This document shows, piece after piece, positions 9,341-16,986 of a stretch of 64,000 nucleotides of DNA. The DNA lies in the NCBI GenBank assembly GCA_036397555.1, contig DASWIS010000031.1, positions 1 to 64,000 on the forward strand. The letters are read 5' to 3'. Source of the DNA: Candidatus Zixiibacteriota bacterium. GTDB lineage: Bacteria > Zixibacteria > MSB-5A5 > WJJR01. Below the pieces are notes generated by a model. It was not told the origin of the DNA, ran no database searches, and was given only the letters and a program-made list of their open reading frames with translations. The translations under genes and the position numbers were made by a program. Positions within the stretch are counted from its first letter, which is position 1, and each line of letters starts with the position of its first letter.

Positions 9341-11779
9341 ATGAGCAGACTGAAAAAGGCCACATTGACCGCGCTGTTCGTACTGCTCGTGGTGCTGCCG
9401 TTGACCGCGTGGATTATCCTGAAGACCGCATTCACGGAGGAGCGCATTCTTGCGATGCTGACGCCGCGTTTGGAAGCAGCGCTCAACCGCCCGGTTCACA
9501 TCTCTCGCGCCGGAGTCGGCATATGGGGAGGCATCGGCATCTGGGTGGGTGACCTGACGGTCGCCAATGCGCCCGGATTCTCCGACGAGCCGCTGCTGGC
9601 TTTGCACCGATTCGACGTGAAGGCGCGGTTTTGGCCGCTGCTGGCGGGCCGGGTTGAGATCGACCGGCTGGAAGTTACGGCGCCCAGTCTCTTGTTGGAA
9701 CGATCCGCCGATGGCCACGTCAACTGGGCCAACCTCTTGTCCGATTCGGCGAAGTCCGACACACTGCCGTCGACCGGACAGCGAAGCATCGCCTCCGCGT
9801 TTTCATTTCGCCGCATTGTGCTCCAGGACGGTGTCGTGATGTATCACGACGATTCGACCGGTCTCGATTTCAGTCTGATTGGTCTTGGGATCGACGCGTC
9901 AATCGAACCGAATTCATCGCTGAGCGTTCTCGAATTCAAATCGGTCTCACTTCTGGACTCGGTTTATGTTCTCTATTCCGACACGGCTCAACCGGTGTCG
10001 GTGCGGTTTCCATCGGGGGCATTCCGATTGAACGCCGACGGCAACTGGAGTTGGGCCGATCAATCGGTCCGAGTCGATACCGCGTCATTGGCTTGGTTCG
10101 ACACAAAACTGGCGATGCGCGGGTCGATGCGTGTCCACCCGCAGGTCCGCGAGTTTCGCATCGCTGCCCATCTGACCCCGACATCGTTGGCACGATTGAC
10201 CGAGAGTTTCGCGACGCAGGTGCCTTCAGGGCCATGGCTGAACCTGGACGGTCAGGTGGAAGGATCGCTGACGGCCTCGGTCACGTGGCCCATCCCCGAA
10301 GGCACTGTGCCGGAGTGGGGGGCGGACGTATTGTTGACGGAATGTGTCTGGAAACCACCGCACAGCGGGGCCGCCATCACGATCCCGCGCATCGAAGTGC
10401 ACGGCGAGGAACGGACCCTCTCCTGGCGGGCGCCGAATGGACGAATCGACAACGGCAGCTTCTCCGTGATCGGTTCGATCGATCGGCTCTTCTCGGTTGA
10501 GCGCACGATCTCTGCGCGGCTGCGGATGGACGCACCGCTTGACGGGCTCGCCGATTTCGTCCCGGATACGATCCCCATCGCGCCGCGCGGACGGCTTCGT
10601 TGCGATGTCACGGCGTTTGGCGCGCTCATGCAGCCGGACCACTGGCGCCTGGCAGGCGACCTCTCACTTGATTCGGCGACAATCGTTGACACGGCGTGGA
10701 GCTTTGATTCTGTCGTTGTGTCGCTCGCCCTCGATTCGGACGGCGACAAGGCGACGCTGCGTCGATGCGACTGGTTGCTGGGCCGCTCGCGCGGGAACGC
10801 TTCGGGAGAGATCAGTGGACTGCTGGCGGCCGTCCGCACGCGTTTCGATTCTCCTGATGTGCTCCACGGCGCGATTGATTTCCAGAGTGGATTTTGCGAT
10901 GTCGATCAACTGCTCGGACCGTCGCCGCCGGAATCCGACTCGTTGGCGGCGATCGATTCGAGCGCATCTCCCGTCCCGGCGATTGCCCTTGGAGGGTCGA
11001 TCGACTGCGACACCATGGTCTACTCGGGGCTGACCGCGCGCAACGTCAGCGCCGACTACCAATACCAAAATCACATCCTGACGCTCGATCCGATTTATGC
11101 GCGAGTCCTCGGCGGGCGCATGCGTGGCACACTGAGTTGGAATGGACAAAACTGGGCGCAGCCGACATTCGTGACGACGATTCACGCCGATTCAGTTGCC
11201 GCCGACAGTTTGTTGTCGCGTTATTTTGACTGGGCCGGCGGGATCTTCGGCCAGGCGTCGTTGGAAGGGACATTCGCCGGCCGTGGGCGCTATGCCTCCC
11301 GGATTCTCCCGTCTCTGGCCGCCGATGGACGTGCCGAAATGCGCGAGGGACGATTGGAAGCATCGCCCATCCTGAACGCTGTTGGCGAGAAGCTCAATGT
11401 CGCGTTGCTGTCCGGCGCGAAACTGTTGCGCGATGTTCGCGTCCCGTTCCGCATTGTCGGCGGGCGAATCATCACCGACCCGTTGCGTTTCGCCGCCGGT
11501 GATGTCGCCTATGAGTGCATCGGATCGTTTGGATGGGACCGTACCCTGGACTATTCCGTCGCGGTCTCCGTACCCAAAGGGGGCGCCAGCAAAGGATTGG
11601 AGCTTCTCGACGGGATGCGCTTGGGTCTCGGTGGGACCGTCGCCCATCCGGTCGTACGGGTTGATGTGGCTCAGGCGGGCCAAAACATCGTCGAAAAGGC
11701 GCTGCAGCCGGCCAAAGACAGCGCATCGGCGACCCTCCGGCGCGCCCTCGATCAATTCATCAAACCCAAACGGCCATGA
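9341..11779 (+). CDS. AsmA family envelope protein
   Basis: An 812-residue protein with one N-terminal transmembrane helix (about residues 8-28). A long beta-rich periplasmic region follows, typical of AsmA/TamB-like bridge proteins. Near the N-terminus ERILAMLTPRLEAALNRPV and a following GxWGGIGIWVGDLTVAN match the AsmA start, and the C-terminal part (residues about 640-780) resembles the AsmA_2 region. Family members are linked to lipid transport and outer-membrane biogenesis. Its stop overlaps the start of the metallopeptidase gene by four bases, so it heads an operon with that gene and the LPS acyltransferase. Confidence 0.85.
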   Translation: MSRLKKATLTALFVLLVVLPLTAWIILKTAFTEERILAMLTPRLEAALNRPVHISRAGVGIWGGIGIWVGDLTVANAPGFSDEPLLALHRFDVKARFWPLLAGRVEIDRLEVTAPSLLLERSADGHVNWANLLSDSAKSDTLPSTGQRSIASAFSFRRIVLQDGVVMYHDDSTGLDFSLIGLGIDASIEPNSSLSVLEFKSVSLLDSVYVLYSDTAQPVSVRFPSGAFRLNADGNWSWADQSVRVDTASLAWFDTKLAMRGSMRVHPQVREFRIAAHLTPTSLARLTESFATQVPSGPWLNLDGQVEGSLTASVTWPIPEGTVPEWGADVLLTECVWKPPHSGAAITIPRIEVHGEERTLSWRAPNGRIDNGSFSVIGSIDRLFSVERTISARLRMDAPLDGLADFVPDTIPIAPRGRLRCDVTAFGALMQPDHWRLAGDLSLDSATIVDTAWSFDSVVVSLALDSDGDKATLRRCDWLLGRSRGNASGEISGLLAAVRTRFDSPDVLHGAIDFQSGFCDVDQLLGPSPPESDSLAAIDSSASPVPAIALGGSIDCDTMVYSGLTARNVSADYQYQNHILTLDPIYARVLGGRMRGTLSWNGQNWAQPTFVTTIHADSVAADSLLSRYFDWAGGIFGQASLEGTFAGRGRYASRILPSLAADGRAEMREGRLEASPILNAVGEKLNVALLSGAKLLRDVRVPFRIVGGRIITDPLRFAAGDVAYECIGSFGWDRTLDYSVAVSVPKGGASKGLELLDGMRLGLGGTVAHPVVRVDVAQAGQNIVEKALQPAKDSASATLRRALDQFIKPKRP

Positions 11780-12774
11780 GCGGACACCGACCGTCGCATG
11801 ATTCGAAAGTGCGTGTGCTGCGCACGGCATTCGCGATTGCCGTTGCCACGCTTTTGTGCGGTCGGATCGTCGACGCCGCGACCGTTCAATTCGTTGTCGT
11901 CGGTGCGGACCACGCATTGGCGCGCAATACCATCGACATCCTGGACGCGGCACATGAAGAAATGGCGCGACTCAGCGGTGTCGCGCTGCAAGACACGGTC
12001 GCCGTCGTCTATGTCTCTTCCGCGCAGTCGTTCGACTCGGTCGTCGGCGGACACTTCCCGGATTGGGGAGTCGCGGCCGCCGTGTCGCGGCAGAATCTGA
12101 TCGCCGTCCGCTCACCGGCCGAGCATCCGCTCGGGCGCGAACTGCGATCCATTCTGCGCCATGAGTTGGCGCACCTGCACCTGGACGCTATGACGCGCGG
12201 ATGGACAGTCCCGCGCTGGATGCACGAGGGCTATGCTCAGCAGTTTGGCCACGACTGGCGATTCGGCGATGACTGGACCGTCGCGCGGGCCGTACTGTCG
12301 GGGTCGATCCTGCCGTTGCGGGACATCGACGGCGTCAATTCCTTTCGAAGTGCGTCGGCGCAGTTGGCCTATGCCCAGTCGTATTTGGCGATGGGGTTCT
12401 ACCTGCATGCCTACGGGTGGCAAGGATTGCAACTGTTCACCGATGCCATTGCCGCCAATCAGAACTGGGACGAGGCGCTCCAGGCAGCGACGGGGATCGA
12501 CTACGCGGGATTCGAAGCCGAGTTCGACGACTACCTGCGTTCACGCTACAACTGGGCTGCGTTTTTGGGGGACACAGCCCTCCTGTGGATCGTACTGGTC
12601 GCCGCGTTCGTCATCCTCTATCTCTTCAAGCGGCGCAGCAGCCGGCGACGGCTCGCCGAGTGGGAGCGTCAGGAAGAATGGGCAGACTTGATACTCGGCT
12701 GGGACCGCGCTCTCCCGACGCGTGCGCCCGACAATCCCTCCCATCCTCCCCGTCGACAGTGCGCGCTAATCTGA
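11776..12774 (+). CDS. Peptidase MA-like gluzincin, membrane-anchored
   Basis: A 332-residue protein with an N-terminal signal peptide, a zinc-protease core with the HExxH motif RHELAHLHLD (about residue 130-139) and a downstream glutamate in WMHEGYAQQF. The C-terminal transmembrane helix lies near residues 265-285, followed by a basic cytoplasmic tail. It resembles the peptidase MA family. The substrate is unknown. It lies between AsmA and the LPS acyltransferase with overlaps on both sides (4 bp and 16 bp), suggesting an envelope maintenance role (inference). Confidence 0.8.
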   Translation: MSGHRPSHDSKVRVLRTAFAIAVATLLCGRIVDAATVQFVVVGADHALARNTIDILDAAHEEMARLSGVALQDTVAVVYVSSAQSFDSVVGGHFPDWGVAAAVSRQNLIAVRSPAEHPLGRELRSILRHELAHLHLDAMTRGWTVPRWMHEGYAQQFGHDWRFGDDWTVARAVLSGSILPLRDIDGVNSFRSASAQLAYAQSYLAMGFYLHAYGWQGLQLFTDAIAANQNWDEALQAATGIDYAGFEAEFDDYLRSRYNWAAFLGDTALLWIVLVAAFVILYLFKRRSSRRRLAEWERQEEWADLILGWDRALPTRAPDNPSHPPRRQCALI

Positions 12775-13643
12775 AACACAGATTGGAATTTGCGGCAGTC
12801 TGGCTGCTGTGGCGGCTGGCCAATGCTCTTCCGGTCGGATTGTCCGATTGCGCCGGACGAGGCGTCGGACGTTTGGTGGGCATCCTCTGGCGCGCGCGCC
12901 GTCACATTGCCCAACACAACCTGTCGCGGGCATTCCCCGATCTGTCACGTCAGGAAACCAGCCGGATCGCGCGCGCGGCATTCGCCAATGTCGGCCAGAC
13001 GGTGTTCGAGGTCCTACGTTTCGGTCGCAACAGCACCGAGCGAATCATCGATTCGGTGGAAGTCGAAGTTGATGGTCTCAAACATCTGGAACAGGCCGCC
13101 GACAACGGCCGGGGTGCACTCCTGATGTCGGCGCACCTCGGCAACTGGGAGCTGCTCGGGGCCTGGGCAAGCAGTCGCGGGTACGCGCTCGACATTGTCG
13201 TCAAGCCGATGCGCAATCCATTGACCGATGCATTGTACAATGCGCAGCGCAGCGCACACGACATCGGTTTGATCCGCACGCAGGTCGGCACACTGGGTAT
13301 CGCGCGCGCACTGGGCGCCAAGCGCTTTGTTGCGCTGCTGGCCGACCAGTACGCCGGACGCGAGGGGGTCGCCGTGGAATTCTTCGGCCGATCCGTTTCC
13401 ACTCCACGCGGACCGGCCGCACTGGCGCTGCGCTTTGGTTGTCCCATCCTCACCGGGGTTCTGGTGCGAAGACCGCACAGACCGTATCTCGCCGTGATCG
13501 ACCCAGCGATACCCGTGACGCGCACCGGAGACGAAACGCACGATGTCACGGCACTGACGCAGGCATTTACCGCGCGGATCGAGTCGTACGTTCGGCGTTG
13601 GCCCGAGCAGTGGTTATGGACGCACCGCCGGTGGCGCGATTAG
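12759..13643 (+). CDS. Lysophospholipid/lipid A acyltransferase (LpxL/HtrB family)
   Basis: A 294-residue LpxL-like protein. Features are an N-terminal hydrophobic segment (AVWLLWRLANALPVGL), the catalytic HxxxxE motif in SAHLGNWELLG, and the VALLADQYAGREGVAVEFFG and PRGPAALALRFGCP regions. The family adds secondary acyl chains to lipid A at the inner membrane. The GTG at 12759 overlaps the upstream gene by 16 bp and gives a family-typical length. The downstream heptosyltransferase gene starts 3 bp after its stop, consistent with an LPS assembly operon. Confidence 0.9.
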   Translation: MRANLKHRLEFAAVWLLWRLANALPVGLSDCAGRGVGRLVGILWRARRHIAQHNLSRAFPDLSRQETSRIARAAFANVGQTVFEVLRFGRNSTERIIDSVEVEVDGLKHLEQAADNGRGALLMSAHLGNWELLGAWASSRGYALDIVVKPMRNPLTDALYNAQRSAHDIGLIRTQVGTLGIARALGAKRFVALLADQYAGREGVAVEFFGRSVSTPRGPAALALRFGCPILTGVLVRRPHRPYLAVIDPAIPVTRTGDETHDVTALTQAFTARIESYVRRWPEQWLWTHRRWRD

Positions 13644-13645
13644 CG

Positions 13646-14704
13646 ATGTCACAGTCGATTCTCGTGCGTGCGCCCAATTGGCTAGGCGATACGGTGTTGG
13701 CTCTGCCGTTTCTGGCCTCGTTGAAAGCCACTGCGCCGGAGTCACGCGTAACCTGTCTGTGCCGTCCCGACTTGGCCCCGCTCTTGAGCCGTGCCGTGGG
13801 AATCGACGGCGTTTTGCCATTGGACGAAACACACGGCGCGCGGGGCTGGAGGTCGCTCCAGCGGAACGCTAAGCGACTCAGGGCACACCGCTTTCATTTG
13901 GGGTTCTGCCTGCCGCCGTCGTTCGGCGCAGCATTTATGCTCTGGCGCGCCGGCGTCAAACGGCGGATCGGATACGCCTCCGACCATCGTCGCCTCTTTC
14001 TGACCGAATCGCGCCCGTATCTGCCCAACGGCAGGCGCGCGCATCGCGTCGAGGGGTATCTGGCATTGTTGGAATGCGTTTGGCGCAATCCGACGCAAAT
14101 CAGTCAGGTGACGTTCGACCCCGGGGACGAGTCACGGCGTGATGCCGTTTCTCTCTTACGGCAGTGTGGCGTGCCCACGGGCCCCGCGATACTCGCGATC
14201 GGGCCGGGATCGGCGCAGCCGAGCCGCATCTGGTTTACCGAACGATATCGAGCCATTGCATTACGCTGGCTGGACAGCAGGGCCGGTGTTGTCATCGCAC
14301 TCGGCTCGCACTCTGAGCAAGACCTGTGCGCACGCGCACTGAGCGGATTGGATACTTCGCGCGCATTCACACTGGCAGGGCGCGCCTCGATTCTCCAGAC
14401 CACGGCGATACTGGAGAAGGCGCGCGTGTACCTGGGGAACGATTCCGGTCTGGCCCACCTGGCGGCGGCGGTTGGAGCGCCGACTGTGGTGATCTCCGGT
14501 CCAGGCGATCCCAACGAGGTCGAGCCACGGGGCCGGACCGTGCTCAGTGTCAAGGAAGAGGTCTTTTGCGCCCCGTGTTATCGTGGGCACTGTTGGCGAA
14601 CGGATCACCCGTTAGAGTGCCTCGACAAAGTCACGACTGAAGAAGTCTGGCACCAGATTGACGGAATGTCCCAACAGACTCCCGATCCCCGGTCGCGCCA
14701 CTGA
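13646..14704 (+). CDS. waaF: ADP-heptose:LPS heptosyltransferase (GT9)
   Basis: A 352-residue GT9 family protein. The N-terminal motif ILVRAPNWLGDTVLALPFL is close to WaaF (heptosyltransferase II). C-terminal donor-binding motifs are AIGPGSAQPSRIW and YLGNDSGLAHLAAAVGAP. It transfers L-glycero-D-manno-heptose to the LPS inner core. It starts 3 bp after the acyltransferase gene. The heptose kinase and adenylyltransferase genes lie 2.4 kb downstream. The assignment to II rather than I or III is by motif resemblance only. Confidence 0.88.
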   Translation: MSQSILVRAPNWLGDTVLALPFLASLKATAPESRVTCLCRPDLAPLLSRAVGIDGVLPLDETHGARGWRSLQRNAKRLRAHRFHLGFCLPPSFGAAFMLWRAGVKRRIGYASDHRRLFLTESRPYLPNGRRAHRVEGYLALLECVWRNPTQISQVTFDPGDESRRDAVSLLRQCGVPTGPAILAIGPGSAQPSRIWFTERYRAIALRWLDSRAGVVIALGSHSEQDLCARALSGLDTSRAFTLAGRASILQTTAILEKARVYLGNDSGLAHLAAAVGAPTVVISGPGDPNEVEPRGRTVLSVKEEVFCAPCYRGHCWRTDHPLECLDKVTTEEVWHQIDGMSQQTPDPRSRH

Positions 14705-14851
14705 TAGTACTGGCGCACAATGACTTAAGCGACCGTTGGGAGCATCGGTATGATTCACCCCCGTCAGGACAAGTGCAACTCCGACAGCACGTTTGCGTAC
14801 ACAACACCCGGTGGCGACGTTCCTGCGAAGCCCCCAGAGAGGCAATCGTCC

Positions 14852-16663
14852 ATGCGGATGTGTTATCACTTTTCCTTCGGTAGACCAGCAATTCGGACCG
14901 GAATCGCCATGCTGGGACTGGTCGTAATGTCGGCATGGTCCGGCATGAACGTCTCACAGGCCCAGACGGTCATTTCGATTCGTGGTTTGAATGAACACGA
15001 TTTTGGAGAGACGTCCTTTGTGATACTCAAGGACACGGATGTCCGGATCAGGGCCGTGGGCGCCGAGACATCCCAGCGCGGCCGGTTGTTCTCTTACCCG
15101 TGGCTCCTCAACGCCGACACGCGTGATGTGGTCTGGACGATGCAGGATGAAGTCACCGAGCCGGTGAAGGGCTCCGACTGGCTGCGTGAATGTTCCGACC
15201 GGTTGCATTTACGCAAGGGAAACTACGAGATGTACTATTATGCGGGCTCGCCATACTACTTCGATGGCGAATTCGATTCCGGGCATGATCTCTCCGAGTT
15301 CTTCGAGAAGTTCGGTGAGCGAATCCAGGAGTGGACCCAGTGGGCCATGGACGGGAATCACAAGGAGCTGCGCCGATTGGCGCGTGAATATGAAGTGACC
15401 CTCGAGTGTCCGGCCGACGCCATACGCGAAGGCGGTGGCCGCACAATACGGGTCCCCGCAATCGATTTGTCTGAACCGGACAATGACAGCTATGAACGGG
15501 TCCGCTTCGCCGTCAGCACCGACATAAGCGTCGAGATCTACGCGATCGGCGAGTATTGGGGTTCGTCGGGAGAACTGGTCGACAAGGGCTGGATCGCCGA
15601 CGCCGCCAGCGGACGAATCGTTTGGGAGATGACCGACGACAACACGGACCGCGCGGGCGGCGCCGAAAAAAACCGACGTTTTCGCGGGCAGGTGCGGTTG
15701 CCACAAGGCGAGTATGTCGCTTACTATATCACCGATGACTCGCATACCGCGGACGACTGGAACTCGCCTCCGCCGCACGATCCCCACGGCTGGGGCCTGC
15801 GCATCTTTCCGGTGAGCCAGTCGGATCGTGCGAGTATCACACGCGTGGCGGATCGACCCGATGCGACGGCGCTCGTCAGACTGACCGGGGTCGGTGACAA
15901 TGAATTGCTCAGCGAGGCCTTCCGTCTTGAGAAGGAGAGCCGTCTGCGCGTGTATGCGCTCGGCGAGTACGACCGATTCAGCGATTGTATGGCCGACTAC
16001 GCATGGCTGAAAAGCGGGGACGACGGACAGAAAATCTGGGTGATGAGCGGATCCAACACGCTGCCGGCGGGCGGCGCGGACAAGAACAGAATGTTCGACG
16101 GCGTTGTTGATCTTTCACCCGGCGAGTATGTGCTCTACTACGTCACCGACGGTTCCCACTCGTATGCCGACGGTTGGAACTCCTCACCGCCGTTCGATCA
16201 GCGCGCGTACGGTGTCTCTGTCTACGCGGGAGAGACCGACTTCGACCCCGTGGTTTTCCAGCGCGTTGACCAGCGCGACGTACGAGAACGCAATGCCATC
16301 GTGTCGATCGTATCGTCGCAAGACGACAGCGAACTGAGCCGGCGCTTCACGCTCACCACGCCCACGCGCGTGCGCATCCACGCCGTCGGCGAGGGCGACC
16401 GCAACGGAATGTACGATTATGGCTGGATCGAAGACCTCGACGCCGACGACGTGGTCTGGGAGATGACCTACCGCAAGACATCCCATGCCGGGGGCGCGGA
16501 CAAGAACCGCCTCGTTGATCAGGTGATCCTGCTGGACAAGGGGGAGTACGCTGTCTACTACGTGACCGACGGATCACATCATCTGGGCGATTGGAATTCC
16601 GATCCGCCGGAAGATCCAACCATGTGGGGAATCATCATCACGCGGGCGGGCGACGGTGAGTGA
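14852..16663 (+). CDS. Secreted protein with four tandem copies of an unrecognised domain
   Basis: A 603-residue protein with a signal peptide (residues about 15-38). Four repeats of roughly 105-120 residues follow, at about nucleotides 14960-15270 (degenerate), 15480-15815, 15865-16235 and 16295-16655. The repeat pattern, reading across, is RVRIxAxGEGD...YxWI, DxxVWEM, AGGADKNR, LxxGEYVxYYVTDGSH, DWNSxPPxDP and a final WGIxI. I do not recognise the family. The beta-rich, aromatic and acidic character suggests an extracellular binding domain (inference). The ATG at 14852 follows AGAGAGG and is preferred over ATG 14750. It is flanked by LPS genes but has its own 147-bp upstream gap. Confidence 0.75.
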   Translation: MRMCYHFSFGRPAIRTGIAMLGLVVMSAWSGMNVSQAQTVISIRGLNEHDFGETSFVILKDTDVRIRAVGAETSQRGRLFSYPWLLNADTRDVVWTMQDEVTEPVKGSDWLRECSDRLHLRKGNYEMYYYAGSPYYFDGEFDSGHDLSEFFEKFGERIQEWTQWAMDGNHKELRRLAREYEVTLECPADAIREGGGRTIRVPAIDLSEPDNDSYERVRFAVSTDISVEIYAIGEYWGSSGELVDKGWIADAASGRIVWEMTDDNTDRAGGAEKNRRFRGQVRLPQGEYVAYYITDDSHTADDWNSPPPHDPHGWGLRIFPVSQSDRASITRVADRPDATALVRLTGVGDNELLSEAFRLEKESRLRVYALGEYDRFSDCMADYAWLKSGDDGQKIWVMSGSNTLPAGGADKNRMFDGVVDLSPGEYVLYYVTDGSHSYADGWNSSPPFDQRAYGVSVYAGETDFDPVVFQRVDQRDVRERNAIVSIVSSQDDSELSRRFTLTTPTRVRIHAVGEGDRNGMYDYGWIEDLDADDVVWEMTYRKTSHAGGADKNRLVDQVILLDKGEYAVYYVTDGSHHLGDWNSDPPEDPTMWGIIITRAGDGE

Positions 16664-16665
16664 TG

Positions 16666-16986
16666 TCATGCATTCGGCGTACCCTCGCGCGCGGGCGACG
16701 ACTGAAACCCGATATTCTTCTCGTCGGCGCCCGCCAGTTTGATTTGTCCGTGCGACGACTCGAACTTCTTGATGTTATCTTCCAGTGCCTTGTGCAACAT
16801 TTTTGCGTGGGCCGGGGTCATAATAATGCGGGCGTACACTTTCGTCCGCCGCGCTCCGGGCGTGACACGGGCGAAGTCGATGACAAATTCCTGCGGTGAA
16901 TGGACGATCATCGCCATATTCGAGTAAATCCCCTCTGCCTCGGACTCGCCCACCTCAAGGTTGATCTGCTGTTGACGCACCTGCAC
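16666..16986 (-). CDS. DUF3467 domain protein
   Basis: A 106-residue protein of the DUF3467 family. Visible motifs are IYSNMAMIVHSPQEFVIDFA near the start, followed by KVYARIIMTPAHAKMLHKAL and LEDNIKKFES. Function is not established. The GTG start at 16986 is fixed by AGGAGG seven bases upstream. The gene converges on the four-repeat protein with two bases between their stops, and diverges from the heptose kinase gene. Confidence 0.88.
   Translation of the reverse strand: MQVRQQQINLEVGESEAEGIYSNMAMIVHSPQEFVIDFARVTPGARRTKVYARIIMTPAHAKMLHKALEDNIKKFESSHGQIKLAGADEKNIGFQSSPAREGTPNA

Follow-up and report, generated by a model that had tools for sequence, protein, structure and literature searches.

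The gene under study (14852..16663, + strand) lies in the window, a stretch of 64,000 nucleotides of Candidatus Zixiibacteriota DNA analysed as a whole, and its open reading frame and translation define an exported four-domain protein of 603 amino acids with an ortholog in 32 of 38 related genomes. A Shine-Dalgarno-like AGAGAGG (14836..14842, +), recognised by inspection of the sequence, precedes the ATG at 14852 by 9 nt. The first 37 residues (14852..14962, +) resemble a signal peptide ending in NVSQA and followed by Q, with a helix at residues 11-30 in the AF2 model. This signal-peptide-like, hydrophobic N terminus is shared by 74 of 78 homologs, in keeping with the secreted protein proposed in the initial annotation. 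The gene is present once in the 2.63-Mb genome from which the window derives.

The protein carries four copies of a domain of ∼ 120 residues, all encoded on the + strand. The first, D1 (aa 38-193; 14963..15430), is degenerate, and from the repeat alignment and the AF2 model it has the fold of the other copies without their site residues. The intact copies were delineated by alignment and AF2 modelling, D4 also being modelled singly: D2 (aa 200-322; 15449..15817; site E234, D244, K273, N274, D295, H298, N304 and P308), D3 (aa 338-461; 15863..16234; site E372, D382, K411, N412, D433, H436, N443 and P447) and D4 (aa 478-601; 16283..16654; site E514, D522, K551, N552, D573, H576, N582 and P586). 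In pairwise BLOSUM62 local alignment, D2-D4 score 232-252 with one another (shuffle maximum 63), and D1 scores 105-117 with D2-D4 (shuffle maximum 59). The kinship of all four copies is therefore far above chance, and the arrangement of three clear copies and one degenerate copy, as first read from the sequence, is upheld.

Directly upstream on the same strand is a heptosyltransferase gene (Glyco_transf_9 in Pfam; 13439..14704, + as the listed ORF, the real start probably lying further in), a neighbour that recurs at two other loci (L013 and L014). A convergent gene for a DUF3467 protein (Pfam; 16666..16986, -) lies on the other side, and a lipid A acyltransferase gene is also near. Just ahead of the genes for the acyltransferase and the heptosyltransferase, 11776-12774 encodes a Peptidase_MA_2 protein.

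Neighbouring genes vary from phylum to phylum. Within Zixibacteria, tldE, mostly together with tldD, is found just upstream at 16 of 30 loci, sometimes with a small β-barrel gene in between; examples in which the tldD-tldE protease genes directly precede the ortholog are L018, L019, L022, L028 and L029. Because tldD and tldE are not adjacent to the window gene, and were not seen at the loci of other phyla, TldD/TldE were left out of the functional assignment. In Calditrichota, the gene directly follows that of an Omp85-type barrel at 15 loci, with gaps of 2-22 nt, and at 15 loci it is directly followed by a DUF4097 toastrack gene; it has been proposed that toastrack domains build stress-sensing complexes close to the membrane (PMC11237479). 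On the Bacteroidota side, a barrel gene lies downstream at five loci. The theme common to these neighbourhoods is the cell envelope.

Neither the window protein nor 25 domains and 77 full proteins reached the cut-off of any Pfam-A family, the sub-threshold matches being partial (24-78 residues). NCBIfam contained no match, and the PDB sequence search produced no credible one. Matches to HVO_0513_N, AMPK1_CBM, DUF5013 and DUF6786 were discarded, since they are partial and score under the cut-off; those to AMPK1_CBM (PF16561) and DUF5013 (PF16405) spanned 28-50 residues at 22.6 and 24.6 bits, against curated cut-offs of 26.8 and 28.5 bits. The initial annotation knew of no family with this signature, and indeed no acceptable match of the repeat to a described family was found in Pfam-A, NCBIfam or the PDB sequences. 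As far as sequence can tell, the domain is undescribed and absent from the family libraries searched.

Among 77 full-length proteins, a Glu, an Asp, the Lys-Asn pair, a second Asp and a His are identical in 77 of 77 in D2, D3 and D4 alike, and a second Asn and a Pro are retained in 76-77. Further conserved elements of the site are the Gly-Gly of GG-x-x-KN, Asp-x-Ser-His and Trp-Asn-x-x-Pro, and a conserved Trp adjoins it. D1 keeps the structural Trp, Gly and Tyr positions and has lost the site residues. The initial annotation had regarded Lys-Asn-Arg and Asp-Gly-Ser-His as invariant; this is true of Lys-Asn and of Asp-x-x-His, but the Arg occurs in only ∼ 89%, the Ser in 97%, and the Gly is not conserved. 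Moreover, the conserved Glu, Asp, Gly-Gly, Asn and Pro, which were not on its list, belong to the core too. No Cys occupies a conserved column, D4 contains no Cys at all, and there is a single conserved His per domain.

AF2 gave a model of the whole protein with pLDDT 88.8 and pTM 0.81, and of D4 by itself with pLDDT 91.0 and pTM 0.85. The latter has eight strands in a jelly-roll-like sandwich, and the fold is confidently predicted to be a jelly-roll β-sandwich, probably of the CUB/PPC/GOLD type. In the D1 model a long helix (aa 147-177) takes the place of the loop preceding the last strand. In the D4 model, the loops at one end of the sandwich hold Glu37, Asp45, Gly70-Gly71, Lys74, Asn75, Asp96, Ser98, His99, Asn105 and Pro109, and the opposite end has no invariant polar residue. 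The invariant polar residues are thus predicted to cluster at one end, as deduced from strand order and not from distances. The single-domain prediction that had been suggested as a check accordingly returned a confident sandwich, with the conserved Asp, His and Asn together at one end by strand order.

VIA matched D4 to the Kremen CUB domain (Z 8.0, 2.5 Å, 91 residues), to C1s CUB1 end to end (Z 7.3, 2.9 Å, 95 residues), to the PPC structure 5sv5 (Z 7.7, range 7.7-8.0 over searches) and to GOLD (Z 7.1). Values of 7-8 may reflect just a common arrangement, CUB, PPC and GOLD being tied near the level of a common fold. Foldseek matched the single domain to the HA heads of influenza and to phage and viral proteins, which was set aside as generic jelly-roll likeness (TM 0.35-0.5, rmsd mostly > 5 Å). 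With the window protein model, Foldseek also gave a high rank to chains 7sqc_1B-1D of the ciliary C1 central apparatus, with a probability of 1.00 and a TMq of only 0.23; these were rejected, and the PDB sequence search did not support them. Separately, Pfam FAP42_B3 weakly matched nine of 77 homologs (best E 0.0021). This likeness to 7sqc and FAP42_B3 possibly reflects a distant eukaryotic relative or chance.

The PPC/collagen-binding domains of bacterial collagenases (5sv5, 1nqj) may share the fold of the new domain (Z 7.1-8.0) and, like it, are exported bacterial tandem modules. Unlike it, they are C-terminal parts of proteases, whereas the window protein has no protease, and no sequence match to them was found among Pfam and NCBIfam models. 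The comparison with CUB domains (PF00431; C1s/C1r/MASP/Kremen) extends from the sandwich, matched end to end, to acidic positions at the strand ends. C1s CUB1 binds Ca2+ and a ligand Lys through Glu45, Asp53, Asp98 and Ser100, and Tyr52 is required as well (PMC4222235). Its pattern is E-x7-D with Tyr preceding the Asp, D-x-S past the penultimate strand, and a Gly at the last strand. D4 has E25-x7-D33 with Tyr32, D84-x-S86 and G104, with the local spacing of C1s and at the corresponding strand ends (this numbering is counted from window base 16319; that of the D4 model is higher by 12). D2 and D3 have E-x9-D, with the Glu and the Asp two residues further apart than in D4 and C1s. A Glu and two Asp residues are invariant where the C1s Ca2+ ligands Glu45, Asp53 and Asp98 fall, a correspondence by strand ends and not by geometry.

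In contrast to CUB, the domain adds the invariant GG-x-x-KN loop and the His, Asn and Pro, has no conserved disulfide-forming Cys, and gave no Pfam CUB match for the window protein at E<=1. A PF00431 search of 129 genomes of the window's phylum was empty, as were its controls. Kinship with CUB was not shown at the sequence level, the profile-profile comparison (hhalign) being at noise: its score of 13.6, obtained with a CUB profile of only four sequences, was reached by six of 60 column shuffles. Since hhalign is at shuffle level and the CUB Cys residues are missing, the domain is not classed as CUB; by analogy, it may nevertheless work like a Ca2+-binding CUB domain. The Asp-x-Ser-His together with the Glu and Asp might instead form a transition-metal site, with Zn or Mn held by His87 and the acidic residues in an envelope metal sensor or metallochaperone. 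The lack of conserved Cys, the single conserved His and the parallel between the acidic positions and a Ca2+ site make this unlikely, even though the His is also retained in 16 of 17 copies found in sensors (see below).

A scan of 84,980 species genomes identified 161 relatives; the profile was built from D4 only, the first alignment having been too diverse. The best 80 of the 161 are nearly all from the FCB group and include Zixibacteria, Calditrichota, Ignavibacteria, KSB1, Gemmatimonadota, Marinimicrobia, Bacteroidota and Latescibacterota. Whole-genome searches found the domain in 80 of 132 genomes of Zixibacteria, the window's phylum, in 39 of 40 of Calditrichota and, on the Bacteroidota side (the phylum of a Bacteroidetes MAG), in 43 of 247. 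Among the orthologs of the 32 related genomes the layout is nearly always one degenerate and three intact domains, and orthologs with this layout occur across the FCB group. In a tree of 80 domains, a short alignment with many weak forks, it is for the most part their position (D2, D3, D4) that groups the copies, rather than the organism, with six label changes against 44 in shuffles. This indicates that the triplication predates the phyla.

Variants of the layout also occur. Some Calditrichota have six domains, one degenerate and five intact (L116, 5739-8333; ORFs of 856-888 aa in G417 and G418). In a divergent Bacteroidota-side branch (L167, L168, L169 and L171-L175), the N terminus is TM-like and the number of domains is either three (451-506 aa) or four. 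The domains of L122, on a Caldisericaceae MAG contig, cluster with Calditrichota copies and are flanked by the same genes; it is probably a misbinned Calditrichota contig.

When the genomes behind the other loci were searched, single copies of the domain were found in transmembrane proteins of ∼ 1200-1350 aa. All ten that were scanned with Pfam contain Reg_prop and Y_Y_Y, and their outputs are HisKA_3 kinase (L137, L138, L164), HisKA kinase (L139, L166) or SpoIIE phosphatase (L161, L162, L163, L165, L170). The domain is placed among the propeller repeats, at residues 150-700, and ahead of Y_Y_Y, and is thus in the extracytoplasmic part of the sensor. These proteins resemble HTCS-type Reg_prop/Y_Y_Y sensor kinases into which the domain has been inserted, although half of those scanned have SpoIIE outputs; the window protein itself differs in having no propeller, Y_Y_Y, membrane anchor or output domain, and its genome contains no domain-bearing sensor of the Reg_prop type. 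At L161 (G363:C38:168000-187500), four consecutive genes for proteins of ∼ 1250-1280 aa, with one domain each in a Reg_prop context, form a tandem expansion of sensors (one of the four was Pfam-scanned).

The 17 sensor copies, which form one side of a branch in the domain tree (99/94), keep the site: Glu in 16, Asp in 16, Lys in 15, Asn in 17, the second Asp in 16, His in 16, the second Asn in 15 and Pro in 17. They agree with the stand-alone consensus at 92% in columns conserved at >=97%, compared with 38% over all columns. The absolute conservation of Lys, Asn, Asp, His and Glu would suit a catalytic set, but sensor receptors carry the same site, three identical active sites in tandem in one chain would be unusual, and binding domains dominate the fold class, so that an enzyme is very improbable. 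The absolute conservation in three copies and across several phyla, the retention in sensors of unrelated architecture and the placing of the residues at a single end of the sandwich, as predicted, support well, if indirectly, the ligand- or metal-binding site suggested by the initial annotation.

Reg_prop/Y_Y_Y-class sensors bind oligosaccharides directly (PMC3243724). This, together with the jelly-roll fold, the conserved Trp beside the site and the position of the window gene directly after a heptosyltransferase gene and near that of a lipid A acyltransferase, is consistent with a carbohydrate-binding module. Its end-loop site would then recognise LPS, capsule or an environmental polysaccharide as the glycan, whether or not a structural Ca2+ is present. 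We regard such a role as possible, although rather doubtful: glycan sites usually vary, but this one is constant in three copies and across phyla, no fusion to a carbohydrate-active enzyme was seen among the loci read, and the AMPK1_CBM matches are partial and below cut-off.

A pocket-like cluster that is unchanged across phyla, in a domain built into sensors, makes it probable that this module senses by binding a ligand or calcium. On balance, we favour an undescribed extracytoplasmic ligand-binding jelly-roll module, probably Ca2+-dependent, that would act as a receptor or scaffold in the window protein and as an input domain in sensors. In this model, the invariant Glu, Asp, Gly-Gly-x-x-Lys-Asn, Asp-x-Ser-His and Trp-Asn-x-x-Pro would be gathered in the loops of one end. 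Ca2+ would probably be held by Glu25, Asp33 and Asp84 (D4), as in Ca2+-binding CUB domains, with the ligand bound by the Lys-Asn and His-Asn loops around it. The window protein would present three such sites in series behind the site-less D1, in the periplasm or at the cell surface, and could serve the envelope as a multivalent receptor or scaffold. In the sensors, the one propeller-inserted copy would pass ligand or Ca2+ occupancy to the kinase or phosphatase output.

What is new here is the breadth of the family, the absolute conservation of its site in triplicate, the predicted fold and the use as a sensory insert. We incline, without great assurance, to view the family as a widespread FCB-group sensory domain for one common ligand, given the constancy of the site, used both as a soluble triple-site receptor and as input to three output types; possibly it is a CUB-like recognition unit of prokaryotes that depends on Ca2+. 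None of the family libraries searched contains this domain, although it occurs in 39 of 40 Calditrichota and most sampled Zixibacteria genomes. A name for it would give an annotation to an exported protein conserved in phyla that have been little studied, and to the domain that provides the input of a set of sensor kinases and phosphatases; the signal of these sensors would become directly testable through binding assays on a soluble domain of 120 residues.
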